Shown one piece after another: positions 2,876 to 59,060 of a stretch of DNA of 64,000 nt (positions are counted from its first letter, which is position 1; each line of letters opens with the position of its first letter). The notes under the pieces were generated by a model. That model searched no databases and was not told the origin of the DNA. It saw only the letters and a list, made by a program, of their open reading frames with translations. Origin of the DNA: Nitratidesulfovibrio termitidis HI1 (GTDB lineage Bacteria > Desulfobacterota > Desulfovibrionia > Desulfovibrionales > Desulfovibrionaceae); contig NZ_KI632512.1 of NCBI RefSeq assembly GCF_000504305.1, positions 2,737,469 to 2,801,468 on the forward strand. Direction: 5' to 3'. The position numbers and the translations under genes were made by a program.

Positions 2876-3925
2876 GTGCCCGTCACGTCCTCCATTTCGA
2901 GACACAGGAGATTCGCCATAGCACCGCTTCTGGAACTGCGCGGCCTTGGCCGCCACTTCACCGTGCGCCGGGGCATGTTCGACCCCACGCCCGCCGTGTT
3001 GCGCGCCGTGGACGGCGTGTCGCTGACCCTGGACCGGGGCCGCACCCTGGGCCTGGTGGGCGAAAGCGGCTGCGGCAAGTCCACCCTGGCCCGCATGGTG
3101 GTGGGGCTGCTGCCCCCCAGCGCGGGGCAGGTGCTGCTGGATGGCCGCCTGTTCGCGGGGGCGGCCAGCGACGCTGCGAATGGCGGCGTGACCGGACATG
3201 CCGTCGGCCCGGCCATTGCGCGCGCCGAGGCCGCACAACTGGTGCAGATGGTCTTTCAGGACCCCTTCTCGTCGCTGAACCCGCGCCGTACAGTGGGGGC
3301 CTCCATCGGCGAGGCGCTGGCCGTGGCCGGGGCGCCCGGCGCGGAACGGCGAGCCAAAGTGGCGGACATGCTGCAACTGGTGGGCCTGCGACCGGAACAC
3401 GCCGACCGCTACCCGCACGAATTTTCCGGCGGCCAGCGCCAGCGCGTGGCCGTGGCCCGCGCCCTGATCACCCACCCGGCGCTGGTGGTGTGCGACGAAC
3501 CGGTGTCCTCGCTGGATGCATCCGTGCAGGCGCAGGTGCTGAACCTGCTGCGCGAGTTGCAGGAACAGATGGGCCTTGCCTACCTGTTCATTTCGCACGA
3601 CCTTGGCGTGGTGGGCCACATGAGCGACCACGTGGCCGTGATGTACCTTGGCAAGGTGGTGGAGGAAGCCCCGCGCGACGTGCTGTTCGCCGCGCCCGCC
3701 CACCCGTACACCCGTGCCCTGCTGGCATCGGTGCCCGTGCGCGACCCGGCCCGGCGCGCCGAACACCCGGCGCTGTCCGGCGACCTGCCCAGCCCCATTG
3801 CCCCGCCGCCCGGCTGCCCCTTTCACCCGCGTTGTCCGCAGGTCATGGACGTATGCCGCCGCGTTGTGCCCGGCTGGCATGCCGTTGCCGAAGGGCAGCA
3901 TGCGCGCTGCCACCTGCATGCCTAG
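2876..3925 (+). CDS. Oligopeptide/dipeptide ABC transporter ATP-binding protein (OppF/DppF type)
   Basis: Cytoplasmic ATPase of a peptide or nickel-type importer. Walker A GESGCGKST (residues 62-70), Q-loop VFQDPFSSLNPR, signature FSGGQRQR, Walker B VVCDEPVSSLD and the switch His in FISHD are all intact. The C-terminus carries the family's Cys-containing oligopeptide motif (HPYTRALL, then CPFHPRC). No permease or binding-protein gene is adjacent, so it is an orphan ATPase. The start is uncertain: the GTG at 2876 has no good ribosome site, whereas AGGAG at 2906-2910 sits 7 nt before an ATA codon at 2918-2920, where relatives would be expected to begin (xAPLLELRGL). The TAG stop is also the first base triplet of a repeat element (3923-4160). 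Confidence 0.88.
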   Translation: MPVTSSISRHRRFAIAPLLELRGLGRHFTVRRGMFDPTPAVLRAVDGVSLTLDRGRTLGLVGESGCGKSTLARMVVGLLPPSAGQVLLDGRLFAGAASDAANGGVTGHAVGPAIARAEAAQLVQMVFQDPFSSLNPRRTVGASIGEALAVAGAPGAERRAKVADMLQLVGLRPEHADRYPHEFSGGQRQRVAVARALITHPALVVCDEPVSSLDASVQAQVLNLLRELQEQMGLAYLFISHDLGVVGHMSDHVAVMYLGKVVEEAPRDVLFAAPAHPYTRALLASVPVRDPARRAEHPALSGDLPSPIAPPPGCPFHPRCPQVMDVCRRVVPGWHAVAEGQHARCHLHA

Positions 3926-4160
3926 GGGACTGCTTCTAACTTGTCTTTTCGCCCGTTGGCTGCGTCAAACTTCGCCCGCCATGGCTTTGCTGTCCTTATC
4001 CGTAAGACTCGCGCTACGCGCTCGCCTAACGGCTAAGGCTCGGTCGAATACGATAAGAGTATGCGCTGCGGTCGCCATCCGTAAGGCTCGCAGACTCGCC
4101 TGACGGCTGCCGCACTCCCTCATGGCAGGCTCGTTTTCCTTGCCAACGAGCGAAAATCCT
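3923..4160 (+). repeat. Structured inverted-repeat element, copy A1 (carries two inserted modules)
   Basis: The element begins at the TAG stop codon of the ABC gene (TAGGGGACTGCTTC) and runs to GCCAACGAGCGAAAATCC. Arms GTTGGC and GCCAAC plus inner pairings make a long imperfect stem, with the apical hairpin ATAC-GATAAGA-GTAT at about 4049-4062. Compared with the plain copies at 45039 and 54649 it has two extra blocks, near 3984-4040 and 4064-4113, each containing a palindromic core (CCGTAAGNCTCG then CTCGCCTNACGG). The bases from 4161 to 4368 contain no gene and nothing further that I recognise. Confidence 0.8.
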
Positions 4161-4379
4161 ACGTTAGGCGCGCTCGCTGAAAGCGTGTTTCGTTTTTGGG
4201 TGCTTCCATGTAGCTTGTGAAAAAACGTACTTGACGAGCGGCCTTGCCGTCACCATAGTGCGGGTGCCCCGCCGCGCGCCGCGTCACGACGCGATTCCGT
4301 ACGGCAGGGGCCATCGAAGACCACGAACCTCCGGCCCCGGCAACTCCGGCGGCGGGGGTGAACACGCCAAGGAGTGTCC

Positions 4380-14506: not shown

Positions 14507-14689
14507 CCCCATCCCTCAAAACTTTCTGTATGGGGTGGCGCGGTGGGCATTTCCGTGGCCCTTTCCCTTTCGCCAAGTGGGCAGGGCCACGCCCAGAGAT
14601 AAGAATTTTCATACCCCATAGGCATTGCACCTCGGAAGTTGTGCCGCAATCGCTCACCGGACCAATTAAAAAGTTTGGGAGGATGGGGG

Positions 14690-14736
14690 GCTCGGGGGGA
14701 AGGAACCTTTTTTAAAAGGTTCCTTCCCCCCGATTC
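14690..14736. terminator. Terminator hairpin downstream of the LysR-type gene
   Basis: GGGGGGAAGGAACCTTTT (from 14694) pairs with AAAAGGTTCCTTCCCCCC. It is in inverted orientation to the cobT terminator and lies just past the argP-like stop. Between 14507 and 14690 I see no gene. Confidence 0.85.
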
Positions 14737-14756
14737 ATTTCATGGATTGTCTTCGC

Positions 14757-15707
14757 CTATTCCTGCGCCAGCACTTGGTGGGCGTGGCTGACCACATGCT
14801 GGGTCAGGGCATCGAGCAGGCGGGTGCGCAGTCCCCAGCAGTGCCAGTAGAGGCGGATGGGCACGGCGTGGCCGGGGGCGAGGTCGACCAGACGACCTTC
14901 GGCAAGGTGCTGGCGGGCCTGGGGCAGGGGGATCATGCCGTAGGCAAGGCCCTGGGCCACCACATCCACGAAGCGTTCGGACGAGGGGATGTAGTGCAGG
15001 GGCAGGCTGCGGGCGATGCGGTCGAAGGACGCGGTGCTGGGCAGCAGGCCGCGCAGGAACTGGTGGTGTACTTCATCGGCGCGGTTGAAGATCACGGCGG
15101 GCGCGCGGCACAGGGCGGCTTCGGTCAGCCCGGCGGGGAACCACTGCGCGGCGAAGTCGGGCGCGGCCAGGCACAGGTAGTCCACCCGGCCCAGCGGAAG
15201 GCAGCGGCAACCCTGAACTGCGGCGGCGCGGGTAGACACGGCGGCGGCCACGTGGCCGTCGCGCAGCAGCAGATGGGTGCGCTCCTGATCGTCCACGGAA
15301 AGGTCCAGCAGGGCGCGCTCGGCCCGCAGAAACGGGGCCACGGCATCGGGAAACCATGTGGCCAGACTGTCCGCATTCACGGCCACGGGCAGGGTGGTCC
15401 ATGGAACATGCGGGATGTCGGGGATGTCCGCGTCCGGCGAATCGGAACCGCCCTCGGGCCGCAGCGCGGCGGCAAGGTCGGTTTCCAGCAGCCCCACCTT
15501 GTCGCAATGGGCCAGCAGGCGGCGGCCCTCGCCGGTGGCGCGGGCCGGGGTGGCGCGCACCACCAGCACGGTGCCAAGCTGGTCCTCCAGCGCCTTGACC
15601 CGCTGCGACACGGCGGACTGCGTCAGGTGCAGCACCCGCGCGGCCCGTTCGAAGCCCCCTTCACGGATGACGGCGGCCACGGCTTCCACAAGTCGATAGT
15701 CGAGCAT
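14757..15707 (-). CDS. argP: LysR-family regulator of the ArgP/LysG type
   Basis: 316 residues. The N-terminal winged helix-turn-helix (residues 1-60, with FERAARVLHLTQSAVSQRVK) is followed by a periplasmic-binding-like effector domain. ArgP/LysG proteins bind lysine or arginine and activate amino-acid export genes. The divergently oriented LysE/ArgO-type exporter at 15920 is the classic partner, so this is the likely target. The 212-bp gap between them should hold the operator; an AT-richer stretch at 15715-15755 is the best candidate. The sensed amino acid is inferred from family knowledge only. Confidence 0.86.
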   Translation of the reverse strand: MLDYRLVEAVAAVIREGGFERAARVLHLTQSAVSQRVKALEDQLGTVLVVRATPARATGEGRRLLAHCDKVGLLETDLAAALRPEGGSDSPDADIPDIPHVPWTTLPVAVNADSLATWFPDAVAPFLRAERALLDLSVDDQERTHLLLRDGHVAAAVSTRAAAVQGCRCLPLGRVDYLCLAAPDFAAQWFPAGLTEAALCRAPAVIFNRADEVHHQFLRGLLPSTASFDRIARSLPLHYIPSSERFVDVVAQGLAYGMIPLPQARQHLAEGRLVDLAPGHAVPIRLYWHCWGLRTRLLDALTQHVVSHAHQVLAQE

Positions 15708-16587: not shown

Positions 16588-16684
16588 ATCCAAGGGGCGG
16601 CAGTCGCTCTGCAATCGCCATCCGTAAGGCTCGCAACCTCGCCTAACGGCTGCCGTCCTTGGCCGCCGGAGGCGTACAAAAACA
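16588..16684. repeat. Palindrome CCAAGGGGCGGCAG/CCTTGGCCGCCGGAGG split by a 50-bp module
   Basis: Compared with the uninterrupted copy at 8618-8664, the sequence CCAAGGGGCGGCAG is followed by an extra block at about 16604-16655 before CCTTGGCCGCCGG resumes. The block holds the palindromic core CCGTAAGGCTCG (16622-16633) and CTCGCCTAACGG (16638-16649). Confidence 0.8.
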
Positions 16685-30278: not shown

Positions 30279-30598
30279 CTAGGAGTTGTTTCTGATTGAG
30301 GAGTTTCGTTCGTTGGCAAGGAAAACGAGTTTGCCATGAGGGAGTGCCCTAGCCGTTAGGTGAGCGAAGCGAACCTTACGGATAGGGACCGCAACGCGCG
30401 GCAGCCGTTATGCGAGTCTTCGAGCGTTACGGATGGCGACCGCAACGCGCGGATAAGGACAGCAAAGCCATGGCGGACGAGGTTTGACCTCTCTGCGCTC
30501 GATGCCCGTAAAGCTCGCAAGCTCGCTTAACGGACACACTCCGTGCCCTTCGGGTCGATCAGCCAACGGACGAAAGGACCATTTAGAAGCAACTCCTA
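30279..30598 (-). repeat. Structured inverted-repeat element, copy A3 (expanded)
   Basis: On the minus strand it starts TAGGAGTTGCTTCTAAATGG (the TAG is the stop codon of the LysE gene) and ends with the complementary arm CCTTGCCAACGAACG then CTCCTAG at 30279. The outer arms pair over nearly 40 imperfect positions. The interior holds three of the palindromic modules (near 30347, 30400 and 30503) in place of the simple apical hairpin of other copies. The remainder of the gap, 30151-30278, contains nothing that I recognise. Confidence 0.78.
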
Positions 30599-45038: not shown

Positions 45039-45171
45039 CTGCCAAATCGGAGATTTCGTTCGTTGGCGAGGAAAACGCCGCCTGCCATGAGGGAGTATAC
45101 TCTTATCGTATTCGACCGAAATGGGAGGCGGCGTTTGACGACGCCAACGGGCGGAAGCTCCGATTTGGCTA
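45039..45171 (-). repeat. Structured inverted-repeat element, copy A4 (plain)
   Basis: On the minus strand it starts at the U32 gene's TAG stop (TAGCCAAATCGGAGC). It then has GTTGGCG, AAACGCCGCCT, the apical hairpin TAC-GATAAGA-GTA, the complementary AGGCGGCGTTT and CGCCAAC, and ends TCCGATTTGGCAG. No module is inserted, so it shows the empty-site arrangement. Confidence 0.82.
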
Positions 45172-49184: not shown

Positions 49185-50111
49185 ATGATCGACATGCACG
49201 TTACCCTTCCCGGCGGGCTGCACCCGCTGACCCTGAACAACCCGGTCATGACCGCCTCGGGCACCTTCGGGTACGGGGTGGAGTTCACCCCCTACGGCGA
49301 CCTGACCAAGCTTGGCGGCATCGTGGTCAAGGGGCTGTCGCTGGCCCCGCGCCGGGGCAACCCCATGCCCCGCGTGGCCGAAACGCCCTGCGGCATGCTG
49401 AACGCCGTGGGCCTGCAGAATGACGGCGCCGAATACTTCGTGCGCACCACCCTGCCCAAGCTCCCGTGGCGCGAGGTGCCCATCGTGGCCAACCTGTACG
49501 CCTGCGACCCCGGCGAATTCGGCGAACTGGCCAGCGTGCTGGCCGCCGAAGAAGGCGTGGCCGCGCTGGAAGTGAACATCTCGTGCCCCAACGTGAAGGA
49601 AGGCGGCGTGATCTTCGGCCAGGACCCGCGTCAGGCCGCCAAGGTGACCGAAGCGGTGAAGATGCACGCGGGCAGCAAGCCGGTCATCGTCAAGCTGTCA
49701 CCCAACGTCACCGACATCGCCCACATGGCCCGCGCCGTGGAAGACGCCGGGGCCGACGTGCTGTCCTGCATCAACACCCTGACCGGCATGGGCGTGGACA
49801 TCAACACCCGCAAGCCCCTGCTGGCCAACGTGGTGGGCGGCCTGTCCGGTCCGGCCATCAAGCCCGTGGCCCTGCGCTGCGTGTGGCAGGTGGCGAAAGC
49901 CGTGTCCATTCCGGTCATCGGCATCGGCGGCATCACCAGCGCAGAGGACGTGCTGGAATTCATGCTCGTCGGCGCGCACGCCGTGCAGGTGGGCACCGCC
50001 AACTTCATCCGCCCCGACTTCGTGTTCCGGCTGGTGGACGAACTGGCCGCCCTGTGCGAGCGCATGGGCATCGAGCAGTGGGATGATTTTCGGGGCACGC
50101 TGAAGGTGTAG
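49185..50111 (+). CDS. pyrD: Dihydroorotate dehydrogenase, class 1B catalytic subunit
   Basis: 308 residues, an FMN TIM-barrel. It oxidises dihydroorotate to orotate in pyrimidine synthesis. Supporting motifs are NPVMTASGTFGYG, PRRGNPMPRVAETPCGMLNAVGL, the active-site block EVNISCPNVKEGG with the Cys base of class 1 enzymes, GLSGPAIKPVALR and IGIGGITSAEDVLEFMLVGA. Pairing with pyrK makes it the NAD-dependent 1B type. AGGAT precedes the ATG. The gene is followed at once by a long structured repeat (50127-50235). Confidence 0.96.
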   Translation: MIDMHVTLPGGLHPLTLNNPVMTASGTFGYGVEFTPYGDLTKLGGIVVKGLSLAPRRGNPMPRVAETPCGMLNAVGLQNDGAEYFVRTTLPKLPWREVPIVANLYACDPGEFGELASVLAAEEGVAALEVNISCPNVKEGGVIFGQDPRQAAKVTEAVKMHAGSKPVIVKLSPNVTDIAHMARAVEDAGADVLSCINTLTGMGVDINTRKPLLANVVGGLSGPAIKPVALRCVWQVAKAVSIPVIGIGGITSAEDVLEFMLVGAHAVQVGTANFIRPDFVFRLVDELAALCERMGIEQWDDFRGTLKV

Positions 50112-50126
50112 CGCGGCGCGCTGCGT

Positions 50127-50235
50127 TCTTTCGCCCTCCGGCTGCGTCAGATTCGTTTTTTACTCCGGTCACGTACGACAAAAGTACGCTCCCTTCGTAA
50201 AAAACGAATCTTCCTTGCCGGAGAACGAAATTTCC
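50127..50235 (+). repeat. Structured inverted-repeat element, divergent copy A6
   Basis: CTCCGGC (50136-50142) pairs with GCCGGAG (50217-50223), AGATTCGTTTTTTAC (50149-50163) with GTAAAAAACGAATCT (50197-50211, perfect 15 bp), and CGTAC with GTACG around the 7-nt loop GACAAAA. The layout and unpaired segments match the other copies while the stems differ by compensating changes. It follows pyrD immediately. Confidence 0.78.
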
Positions 50236-50270
50236 GCAGCGCGAGCTGGTGTGAATCCCTGTTCAAAAGA

Positions 50271-50378: not shown

Positions 50379-50416
50379 CGGGCCGCGCACCATGCAGTGC
50401 GCGGCCCTTGTTGTTT
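50379..50416. terminator. Bidirectional terminator downstream of putA
   Basis: GGGCCGCGCAC (50380-50390) pairs with GTGCGCGGCCC (50397-50407) around CATGCA; TTGTTGTTT follows on the plus strand and GTTTAATTT on the minus strand. Confidence 0.85.
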
Positions 50417-54648: not shown

Positions 54649-54785
54649 TCCAAATGATCTTTTCGCCCGTTGGCTGCGTCAAACTTCACCAGCCACTTCG
54701 GTCAAATACGATTAGAGTATGCTCCCTCGTGGCAGGCTCGTTTTCCTTGCCAACGAACGAAAATCCTCATTTGGAAACAGCCCCT
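54649..54785 (+). repeat. Structured inverted-repeat element, copy A5 (plain), in the zraP-like leader
   Basis: Outer arms TTCCAAATGA and its complement, then GTTGGC (54669-54674) with GCCAAC, and the apical hairpin ATAC-GATTAGA-GTAT (54706-54720). No module is inserted. Unlike the other copies it is not next to a stop codon but between a sigma-54 promoter and the zraP-like start, in antisense to that transcript. Confidence 0.82.
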
Positions 54786-55078: not shown

Positions 55079-57301
55079 ATGCGTATCAACAAGGCGGCCA
55101 ACGCGCCGCTGCCTTCGCCGTGGCTGATCATCGGGGCAACGGCGGCCCTGGCCCTGGTGCTGGCCGTGCTGACCGTGCTGAACCACGATGGCGAGCAGGA
55201 ATCCATGCGGCGCATCCTTTCCGAAAAGGGTGCTTCGCTGATCCGGGCCTTCGAGGCCGGTGCGCGCACCGGGCTGCGCGGGCGCGCCGGAGGCGAGCTG
55301 CGTTTGCAGATATTGCTGGAGGAAATGGCCGACCAGCCGGACATCCAGTTCATCGCCGTCACCGACAGGCAGGGCGTGGTGCTGGCCCACAGCGATCCGC
55401 AGTGGATCGGCCGTCCCCTGGTCGACCCGGCCACCATGGCGGCCTTGGCGGTGCCCCCGCCGCCCGCTCCTTTGGGGCGTGACGGGAATCAGCAGCCGCG
55501 CGACGAGGTCGGCTGGCGGCTGATGGAGGCGGGCGGCCAGCGCGCCTTTCTGGTGTACCGTACCTTCATTCCCTTGCAGCGCACAGCCCGGCACATGGAT
55601 CTGGGGAGCATGGGCGGCCACATGATGGGGCACGGCATGCGTGACCGCGGGCATGGCGGTCAGCCGGGGGGCCAAATTGGCGGCATGTCGGGCGGCATGA
55701 TGATGGGGGGCATGCCCGGCTGGCTGCGCCGCGAGATGGAGGCGGACTCCCAGGCTGACCGCGATGCCCCGCCCCCGGTGATCATCGTGGCGCTGGACAC
55801 GGCCCCCTTCGACGCGGCCCAGGCGTCCGACCGCCAGCATACCCTGATCATGCTGTCCATCCTGGCCCTGCTGGGCGGGGCCGGTGCGCTTTCGCTGTTG
55901 TGGTCGCGCCATGCCCGCGCCTCGCGGCGGCTGGTGCGGCAGGCCCAGTCCTTTGCCCTGCACGTGGTCACCAGCCTGCCCGACGGGCTGGTGGTGCTGG
56001 ACGGCGCGGGCCGCGTGGCCACCTGCAACGCGGCGGCGCGCGACCTGCTGCGTCTGGGCGATGGCGTGACCGCCGGGGCCGCGCCGGAAGCGGTGCTGCC
56101 CCCCCCGCTGGCGGAACTGGCCGGGCGGTTGACCCGCGGAACGCCTGGCGATGGAGATGCCGATGCCGCTCCGTCCTTCGGAACGGAAGTGACCCTGGAT
56201 TGCCCCGTGGCGGGCGGCCCGCCCGTGCCCATGAGCGTGCGCGGGGTGCGCATTGCCGCCGGAGACGCCGCCGACGCCGGGGCCATCCTGATCCTGCGCG
56301 ACCTGCGCGAGGTGCGCCGCCTGCAGGACGAGGTGCGCCGCCGCGAAAAGCTGGCCGCCATCGGCAGCCTGGCCGCCGGGGTGGCCCACGAACTGCGCAA
56401 CCCGCTCAGCTCCATCAAGGGCTATGCCACCTATTTCGGCAGCCGCTTCGCCGAGGGCAGCGAAGACCGCGAGGCCGCACGGGTGATGGTGCAGGAGGTG
56501 GAGCGGCTGAACCGGGTCATCTCCGATCTCATCGGCTTGTCCCGACCTTCGGACATTGCTCCCCGTCCGGTGGACGCCGGATTTCTGGTGCACCACGTGC
56601 TGCGGCTGGTGCGGCAGGACGCCGCCCATCGGGGCGTGGCCGTGCGGGTGGAGACGCCGGCCGGCATGCCAGACGGGATGCCAGACGGGCTGCGCGCTGG
56701 AGCGGAAGGCGGTGTGCCCGGCGCCCTGCCCCGGGTCATGCTGGACCCGGACCGTTTTTCGCAGGCGCTGCTCAACGTGTTCCTGAACGCGCTGGAAGCC
56801 ATGCCCCACGGCGGCGAACTGGCCGTGCGCTTGGCCGCCGCGCCGGGCAACCGCATTGCGGTTTCGGTGCGCGACACGGGCACCGGCATTGCGCCGGAGC
56901 ACCTGGCCACCATCTTCGACCCCTATTTCACCACCAAGAGCCAGGGCACTGGCCTGGGCCTTGCCATCGTGCACAAGATCGTGGAGGCCCACGGCGGCGA
57001 GATGTCGCTGCGCTCAACCCTTGGCCAGGGCACGGAGATCACCTTCCTGCTGCCCGCCGAACCGGTGCAGGGGCAGGAGCACGCGCGGGACGCGGCTGGC
57101 TCCGGCGCTGACGAGGTCGCTCCGGTTGCCGCTTCCGCCACGGCCCCGGCTGCAGGTCCGGCGGTATTCACCGCCGTTTCCTCCTCACGATTCGAATCTG
57201 CCGAATCTGGCGCGTCTGGCGAATCTGGCACATCTGCCGAATCTGGCGCAGCCGTCATATCCGGACGATCCGGCACTACCACAAAGGACGACACGCCATG
57301 A
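55079..57301 (+). CDS. ZraS-like sensor histidine kinase with a Met/His/Gly-rich sensor insert
   Basis: 740 residues. Membrane segments at about 15-34 and 255-276 enclose a periplasmic domain. Within it residues 172-213 are Met/Gly/His-rich (GGHMMGHGMRDRGHGG pattern), like the tail of the divergent ZraP-like protein. A PAS domain (LPDGLVVLDGAGRVATCNAA), HisKA (GVAHELRNPLSSIKGYA) and HATPase boxes (NVFLNALEAMPHGG, DTGTGIA, GTGLGLAIV) follow. It should sense periplasmic metal and phosphorylate the ZraR-like regulator, whose ATG overlaps its stop. The last 60 residues are an Ala/Ser/Glu/Gly repeat tail. Confidence 0.92.
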   Translation: MRINKAANAPLPSPWLIIGATAALALVLAVLTVLNHDGEQESMRRILSEKGASLIRAFEAGARTGLRGRAGGELRLQILLEEMADQPDIQFIAVTDRQGVVLAHSDPQWIGRPLVDPATMAALAVPPPPAPLGRDGNQQPRDEVGWRLMEAGGQRAFLVYRTFIPLQRTARHMDLGSMGGHMMGHGMRDRGHGGQPGGQIGGMSGGMMMGGMPGWLRREMEADSQADRDAPPPVIIVALDTAPFDAAQASDRQHTLIMLSILALLGGAGALSLLWSRHARASRRLVRQAQSFALHVVTSLPDGLVVLDGAGRVATCNAAARDLLRLGDGVTAGAAPEAVLPPPLAELAGRLTRGTPGDGDADAAPSFGTEVTLDCPVAGGPPVPMSVRGVRIAAGDAADAGAILILRDLREVRRLQDEVRRREKLAAIGSLAAGVAHELRNPLSSIKGYATYFGSRFAEGSEDREAARVMVQEVERLNRVISDLIGLSRPSDIAPRPVDAGFLVHHVLRLVRQDAAHRGVAVRVETPAGMPDGMPDGLRAGAEGGVPGALPRVMLDPDRFSQALLNVFLNALEAMPHGGELAVRLAAAPGNRIAVSVRDTGTGIAPEHLATIFDPYFTTKSQGTGLGLAIVHKIVEAHGGEMSLRSTLGQGTEITFLLPAEPVQGQEHARDAAGSGADEVAPVAASATAPAAGPAVFTAVSSSRFESAESGASGESGTSAESGAAVISGRSGTTTKDDTP

Positions 57302-58766: not shown

Positions 58767-59060
58767 GGGGGAAGGAACCTTTCGCTCTGCGGTCGCCATC
58801 CGCGCGTTGCGGTCCCTATCCGTATGGCGCGCAAGCTCGCCTAACGGCTAGGGCAAGACTCGCGCGTCATGCACCATATCCGTGGGTTCGCGAGGTGACC
58901 GAACGGTCACGCATTGTGTCTTTCGAGTCGGCCTTCGCGCTCGCCTGACGGCTGCCGCAAAAGGTTCCTTCCCCCGCACCCCCAGCGCTGCTGTCGCCAT
59001 CCGTAATGTTCGCGCTATGCGCTCACATAACGGCTGCCGCTCCTCCCAAACTTTTCATTT
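58767..59060. repeat. Terminator repeat split by palindromic modules
   Basis: Terminator arms GGGGGAAGGAACCTTT (58767-58782) and AAAAGGTTCCTTCCCCC (58959-58975) are those of the compact hairpin at 14694, but here 176 nt separate them, made of at least two palindromic modules and the inverted repeat GTGACCG-aa-CGGTCAC (58895-58910). A further module (about 58984-59040) splits the flank CACCCCC...CTCCCAAACTTTTCATTT. No gene lies in 58741-59145. Confidence 0.8.

Follow-up and report, generated by a model that had tools for sequence, protein, structure and literature searches.

Covariation in a pyrD-linked repeat of Nitratidesulfovibrio termitidis HI1 and its apparent origin in a family of mobile hairpins

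Introduction

REPs are high-copy palindromes found near the 3′ side of coding regions, with lengths of 20-40 bp and stems of 5-13 bp; as Di Nocera et al. (2013, PMC3733652) describe them, GTAG REPs often supply a TAG stop, and CGTC REPs occur without a dedicated transposase. REPINs, according to Bertels and Rainey (2011, PMC3116915), are mobile hairpins whose ends are highly conserved and whose spacer varies; they have a RAYT transposase and often show compensatory changes. The insertion sequence IS1272 is reported to replace an existing inverted repeat, recognised as a structure, though it is a full element with its own transposase (PMC5678879). In Geobacter metallireducens, multicopy palindromic families have been reported, one described there as predicted RNA elements (PMC2700814), and these are possibly related to the repeats studied here.

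The present analysis concerns a repeat behind pyrD in the sulfate reducer N. termitidis HI1, lying in a stretch of 64,000 nt that was analysed as a whole (the window), and the family of about 100 genomic copies to which it is assigned (family A). Like the GTAG and CGTC REPs, family A is high-copy and sits close behind coding regions. CGTC REPs have an unpaired CGTC (or TGTC/CCTC) at one end of the palindrome; in family A, an unpaired GCGTC is located at the foot of the inner hairpin, inside an internal loop of a larger hairpin. In contrast to the 20-40 bp of REPs, its elements measure about 110-150 nt when free of nested inserts and have several internal loops; in contrast to the CGTC REPs, with stems of 8-9 bp and loops of 4-5 nt, its stems are multi-looped and its loops are 6-7 nt long. 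Further, the tetranucleotide preferred before the family A hairpin is YTAG rather than the GTAG that stands unpaired at the foot of GTAG REPs, and, unlike the situation of GTAG REPs with RAYT/Y1, the transposase domain PF01797 has 0 matches in the HI1 genome. Family A is similar in scale to the REPINs of Bertels and Rainey and shares their common compensatory changes; unlike REPINs as that paper presents them, its ends vary, its inner loops are conserved, and its genome is without a Y1 transposase match. Replacement at family A sites recalls the IS1272 report, but an IS1182-type domain is found in just one of eight genus genomes, and the printed empty sites, unlike the IS1272 targets described there, show no hairpin by eye.

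Unlike MITEs, family A copies have by eye no common terminal inverted repeats. Integron attC sites are hairpins with variable stems placed behind stop codons; unlike them, family A is tracked by no integrase, and at the compared sites its neighbouring genes are not carried along as cassettes. The word Desulfovibrio is absent from the main text of PMC3733652, and the open-access literature searched yielded no earlier description of family A in Desulfovibrio.

Results and Discussion

The pyrD reading frame (49185-50111, + strand; PF01180 dihydroorotate dehydrogenase, E 6.5e-66) ends in a TAG stop (50109-50111, +), five bases 5′ of a hairpin that spans 50117-50243 and encloses the segment 50127-50235 reported in the first-pass annotation. 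That segment is the family A core (+; R1 match, 116.1 bits). By fold and coordinates, the 5′ outer arm CGCGCTGCG (50117-50125, +) pairs with the 3′ outer arm CGCAGCGCG (50235-50243, +) in a 9-bp outer stem, whose 5′ arm by eye differs from the outer arms of most other copies and is identical in the ortholog of genome G007. From outside inward, the core begins with the stems TTTCG/CGAAA and CTCCGGC/GCCGGAG (50136-50142/50217-50223, +), followed by an internal loop TGCGTC/TTCCTT, a 15-bp stem AGATTCGTTTTTTAC/GTAAAAAACGAATCT (50149-50163/50197-50211, +), an internal loop containing GGTC/CTCCC, and an apical stem CGTAC/GTACG (50172-50176/50184-50188, +) with the loop GACAAAA (50177-50183, +). All stems that the annotation had quoted for this copy were found where it placed them.

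Folded as RNA, positions 50112-50242 reach -60.6 kcal/mol (z of -7.2, with 0 of 200 shuffles equally good); as DNA, both strands of the hairpin fold, with z of -6.4 and -7.1. The terminator scan flagged nothing at the element, its sole site being downstream at 50380-50407. At gathering thresholds, Rfam found two tRNAs in the window and nothing at the elements; near pyrD, a search at E<=10 gave nothing relevant, merely a 13-bit match beside the element (E 5.4). A search of phage sequences with the pyrD copy gave no match. The two inner internal loops (50143-50148/50211-50216 and 50165-50171/50189-50193) resemble each other in an asymmetric motif, GTCA opposite TCC, which gives the impression of one hairpin unit set inside another.

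The window contains four other family A copies. Two of them, at 3923-4172 (+; G000:C1:2741418; right limit approximate; TAG at 3923-3925, +) and 30280-30598 (- strand; limits approximate; TAG at 30598-30596, -), hold by eye two and three nested hairpins of a second repeat, B, respectively, and are absent from the R1 hits. The other two are R1 hits: the copy at 45041-45171 (-; TAG at 45171-45169, -), called A4 in the annotation, has the stem AAACGCCGCCT/AGGCGGCGTTT, and the copy at 54650-54774 (+) has a shortened 5′ outer arm and no coding stop codon within 200 nt upstream. Plasmid sequences searched with the latter (the 54648 copy) gave no match.

Across the 4.26-Mb genome, a covariance model built from ten copies placed family A at 104 positions at E<=0.1. 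This is a minimum count, as it comes from 150 scored candidates and misses the window copies that hold nested inserts. The ten weakest places were left out of the extraction; 105 matches were aligned from 90 loci, three that were reverse-strand duplicates of other matches were dropped, and a place hit in more than one overlapping locus was counted once. The resulting 95 copies include three of the five window copies, namely those without nested inserts. A copy consists of a core of about 110 nt and outer arms that are paired within a copy and differ between copies, with by eye no terminal sequence in common. The asymmetric internal loops stay while the stems vary (GCGTC opposite TTCCT, GGTC opposite CTCCC); in particular, GCGTC 5′ of the inner hairpin, itself in an internal loop, is kept in most of the copies printed and in other genera. 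The four apical loops that the annotation gave for its four named window copies are correct, but its wider statement that the loop is always 7 nt fails genome-wide: the 64 insert-free copies gave 54 parsable loops, 41 of them 7 nt long and 13 of them 6 nt.

Family A is present in all eight genomes of the genus examined (67-94 hits each), and genomes searched singly gave 88 hits in G007 and 120 in G006. Including HI1 itself, 19 of 39 relatives have a hit; in a phylum-wide sample of 395 genomes, again with HI1 included, 50 have one at E<=1e-5 under stricter filtering. Exact matches to the apical pattern, among those listed, occur in Nitratidesulfovibrio liaohensis, N. oxamicus and Desulfovibrio sp. 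A2.

The proposal that the copies form one family, in which pairing is conserved through two-sided changes, is borne out by pairing counts and by a tree-based test. In alignment A2 (98 distinct rows, three being reverse-strand matches), 95.0% of cells are paired, compared to 77.5% after shuffling and 37-47% with one side slid, and for 27 of the 31 pairs, one row or more shows both sides changed. Where the annotation had counted a lack of significant covarying pairs against its own claim, a tree-based, R-scape-like test returned 14 of 31 pairs at E<0.05 and 0 significant pairs outside the structure, using a null from the 64 insert-free HI1 copies with 12 simulated alignments and a fitted tail. 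Both alignments had been fitted to a model of the same structure, which favours that structure. Covariation alone does not single out RNA, because REPINs, a form of mobile DNA, are also reported to show compensatory changes often (PMC3116915). The covariation is genuine, and the family that shows it has the look of mobile hairpins; the annotation's reading of the covariation as selection on an RNA fold is only partly supported.

Placement behind stop codons is strongly biased. In 72 of 95 copies, a simple coding test places a same-strand stop codon 9-26 nt before the core, a span that by eye is taken up by the outer arm; contact between stem and stop was read by eye, because automatic detection of the outer-stem base over-extended and was discarded. 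Another 11 copies have their same-strand stop at 27-200 nt, and in nine of these, as we read them, a nested hairpin in the first internal loop shifted the model start; no stop was seen within 200 nt of the last 12, including one whose flank is too short. On the opposite strand, a stop is 9-26 nt away in 0 of 95 copies and 27-200 nt away in 19.

The stops at copies are TAG in 58 cases, TAA in 7 and TGA in 7, compared to 289, 79 and 181 in a background of long coding frames from the window and 800 kb of G004, mainly a relative and not the HI1 genome itself (P 4e-6). Moreover, YTAG accounts for 43 of the 58 TAG cases but for 93 of 264 TAG stops in the 800 kb of G004 (P 7e-8), whereas GTAG accounts for 13 of 58 and 132 of 264, respectively. 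Within the same 800 kb, 119 YTAG occurrences fall at stops and 447 at other places between genes, so that sequence preference alone would put about 21% of copies at stops if insertions in genes were purged; the stop-codon bias is thus unexplained by YTAG. RelE-type mRNA cleavage at UAG was dropped as a candidate cause because some copies sit at no stop codon.

Helices of RNA pass through G-U, and the balance of G-U and A-C cells therefore bears on whether an RNA fold is kept. In 77 deduplicated insert-free rows (HI1 and congeneric), there are 21 G-U and 32 A-C among 2,387 cells (P 0.17); before deduplication, 119 rows that contain repeats of one copy and orthologs gave 28 and 46 among 3,689 cells (P 0.047). 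Among HI1 copies alone, the counts were 17 and 31 in the 64 insert-free rows (P 0.06) and 17 and 25 in a set of 59 rows (P 0.28), while a first count of 25 and 73 in 95 rows had taken in misaligning rows with nested inserts. The row filter handles G-U and A-C alike. In contrast, a small control of eight G004 tRNAs with readable bracket notation has 11 G-U and 0 A-C in 170 cells, and deduplicated family A differs from it in Fisher tests that treat cells as independent (P 3e-4 for the split, P 3e-6 for G-U per cell). Since G-U does not exceed A-C, unlike in the tRNA control, there is no sign of selection on the sense RNA. The A-C tilt has a P of 0.17 once deduplicated, and no strand preference is therefore claimed.

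Orthologous sites separate change in place from replacement. From 64 comparisons between HI1 and congeneric genomes, three repeats of the pyrD site were left out and 61 were scored; these are partly non-independent, as some share an HI1 copy. The 20 comparisons with cores at least 92% identical contain 14 one-sided pair changes (9 A-C, 3 G-U and 2 other) and 2 two-sided ones, compared to 38 one-sided and 39 two-sided in the 15 comparisons with cores 70-90% identical (P 0.005 between classes), where 4 further changes on both sides that lack two standard pairs stayed uncounted. The 26 of 61 comparisons below 70% core identity, which involve nested inserts and broken or empty sites, were not counted. 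At c3240671, in the 70-90% class, the two species' copies differ by one-sided changes, with 0 clean two-sided ones. The contrast between classes indicates that two-sided changes are found mainly at sites occupied by a more divergent copy, and do not stem from repair in place.

Further, the presence of the element varies among congeneric species whose flanks are about 85-98% identical. A gap of 6-36 nt stands in place of the element in 6 of the 64 ortholog comparisons, and two further empty sites were seen by eye at 2253440 and 3160634. In G004, empty or nearly empty sites with conserved flanks are located at 2253440, 2259105, 2327321, 3160634 and 3174041, and less clean ones at 2261575 and 2263810. 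Of the congeners compared at the pyrD stop, G007 carries the element, with three small changes in its core, five by eye lack it, and one further locus was unreadable; this is not a clean empty site, because the sequence further downstream is rearranged. At 1131152, an older copy adjoins the TAG in G007, but in HI1 the two are separated by another copy, which contains a nested hairpin. At c2998571, c3240671 and c3019939, two species carry different copies after the same stop codon, followed downstream by what appear by eye to be 3′ remnants of another copy. A possible 3-4 bp repeat of the stop codon is visible at 2253440, 2327321 and 1131152, though its right-hand copy also fits as a stem partner. 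Judged from these aligned sites, family A copies are evidently gained, stacked and replaced between species.

These results bear directly on a host-selected structured RNA in the 3′ UTR, which would protect the mRNA 3′ end or affect termination and whose fold would be kept by selection on the host gene. The sense orientation and stop proximity of 72 of 95 copies, the strong covariation and the stable fold all agree with it; however, G-U is no commoner than A-C, highly similar orthologous copies show mostly uncompensated pair changes, close species differ in presence, and the terminator scan flags nothing at the element, only the site downstream. The first three of these observations run against the annotation's view of a conserved RNA fold kept for the host, and we regard this explanation as unlikely.

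Less probable still is that the paired changes were made rather than selected, with template switching or intrastrand repair copying one arm onto the other. Such copying would account for the many two-sided and fewer one-sided changes among paralogs and for the rarity of G-U intermediates, but it should erase the asymmetric internal loops, which are seen across genera, and it does not match the 2 two-sided and 14 one-sided changes where cores are at least 92% identical. Finally, recombination sites of an integron system, folded as the bottom strand behind a gene's stop codon in the manner of attC, share with family A the stop-codon proximity, the variable stems with conserved unpaired features and an A-C over G-U tilt (non-significant after deduplication, P 0.17), yet they are a very improbable explanation, as no integron integrase (TIGR02249) exceeds the curated cut-off in any of the eight genus genomes, the conserved outer sequences by eye misfit the R-box consensus, and genes such as pyrD stay put while the element changes.

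Comparison with relatives suggests that these are mobile DNA hairpins and not an RNA maintained for the host gene; the pyrD-linked sequence is probably one member of a large family of such small elements, REP/REPIN- or MITE-like in character. A putative trans-acting enzyme would recognise the folded single strand by its asymmetric loops and would move only those copies still able to fold. Because only foldable copies would be moved, the pairing, and not the letters, would be kept across the moving lineage, while settled copies would decay without compensation. The covariation is most economically explained by selection for movement in the folded state. More tentatively, family A may represent a class of structure-recognised mobile DNA in Desulfobacterota, in which the letters are free, the loops are read by a candidate enzyme, insertion occurs in the sense direction directly behind stops, and newcomers displace older copies, so that a 3′ region would record successive insertions.

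Among the mobilising enzymes considered, the Y1 transposase has partial or stop-broken PF01797 matches in two of seven congeners; a reverse transcriptase is found in two of the eight genus genomes, HI1 included; and an IS1182-type DDE domain is found in one of the eight. Neither of the last two tracks copy number, and RAYT/Y1, reverse transcriptase, integron integrase and IS1182-type transposase were all set aside as mobilisers since none does so. In the relative G015, which has 55 family A hits, the IS1182-type domain is matched 11 times. No long element with a gene between its halves was seen when the window and 800 kb of G004 were scanned by motif, though the left-half motif used was strict and passed over many complete copies.

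Compensatory changes in a repeat family need not signal a functional RNA, as a mobile hairpin can leave the same trace; counts of G-U against A-C, together with orthologs compared in place, can separate the two. For REP-like palindromes that lack a known transposase, family A is a tractable system for testing: each genome holds about 100 copies, empty sites can be read, insertions are stacked, and none of the tested enzymes explains the strong bias towards stop codons.

The second repeat B, CCGTAAGGCTCGC...CTCGCCTAACGG, occurs both alone and inside family A internal loops. Stand-alone B hairpins are located at 16606-16655 (+) and 58804-58853 (+), both in repeat family D6, with a B hairpin at 4063-4112 listed beside them. 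A loose pattern gives B-like matches in 44 of the 95 family A copies, as a rough count, and the presence of B differs between HI1 and G004 at 2379806 and 3232902. By eye, the outer stem of B varies by paired changes (CCTTA/TAAGG, CCCTA/TAGGG, CCTCA/TGAGG).

Several other arrangements were seen. On contig C1 of G203, positions 14631-15348 (L272) hold five tandem family A hits at a constant start-to-start spacing of 152 bp. In G018, two copies lie 147 bp apart at 1354-1610 (L041), and the TAG of a 315-codon open frame lies 18 nt before the core of the first. The apical pattern of family A is present in one viral contig, IMGVR_UViG_2901948472_000007, at 4317-4344 (L418). Within the window, positions 57187-57264 consist of short tandem 9-bp repeats resembling ATCTGGCGA (family D4).
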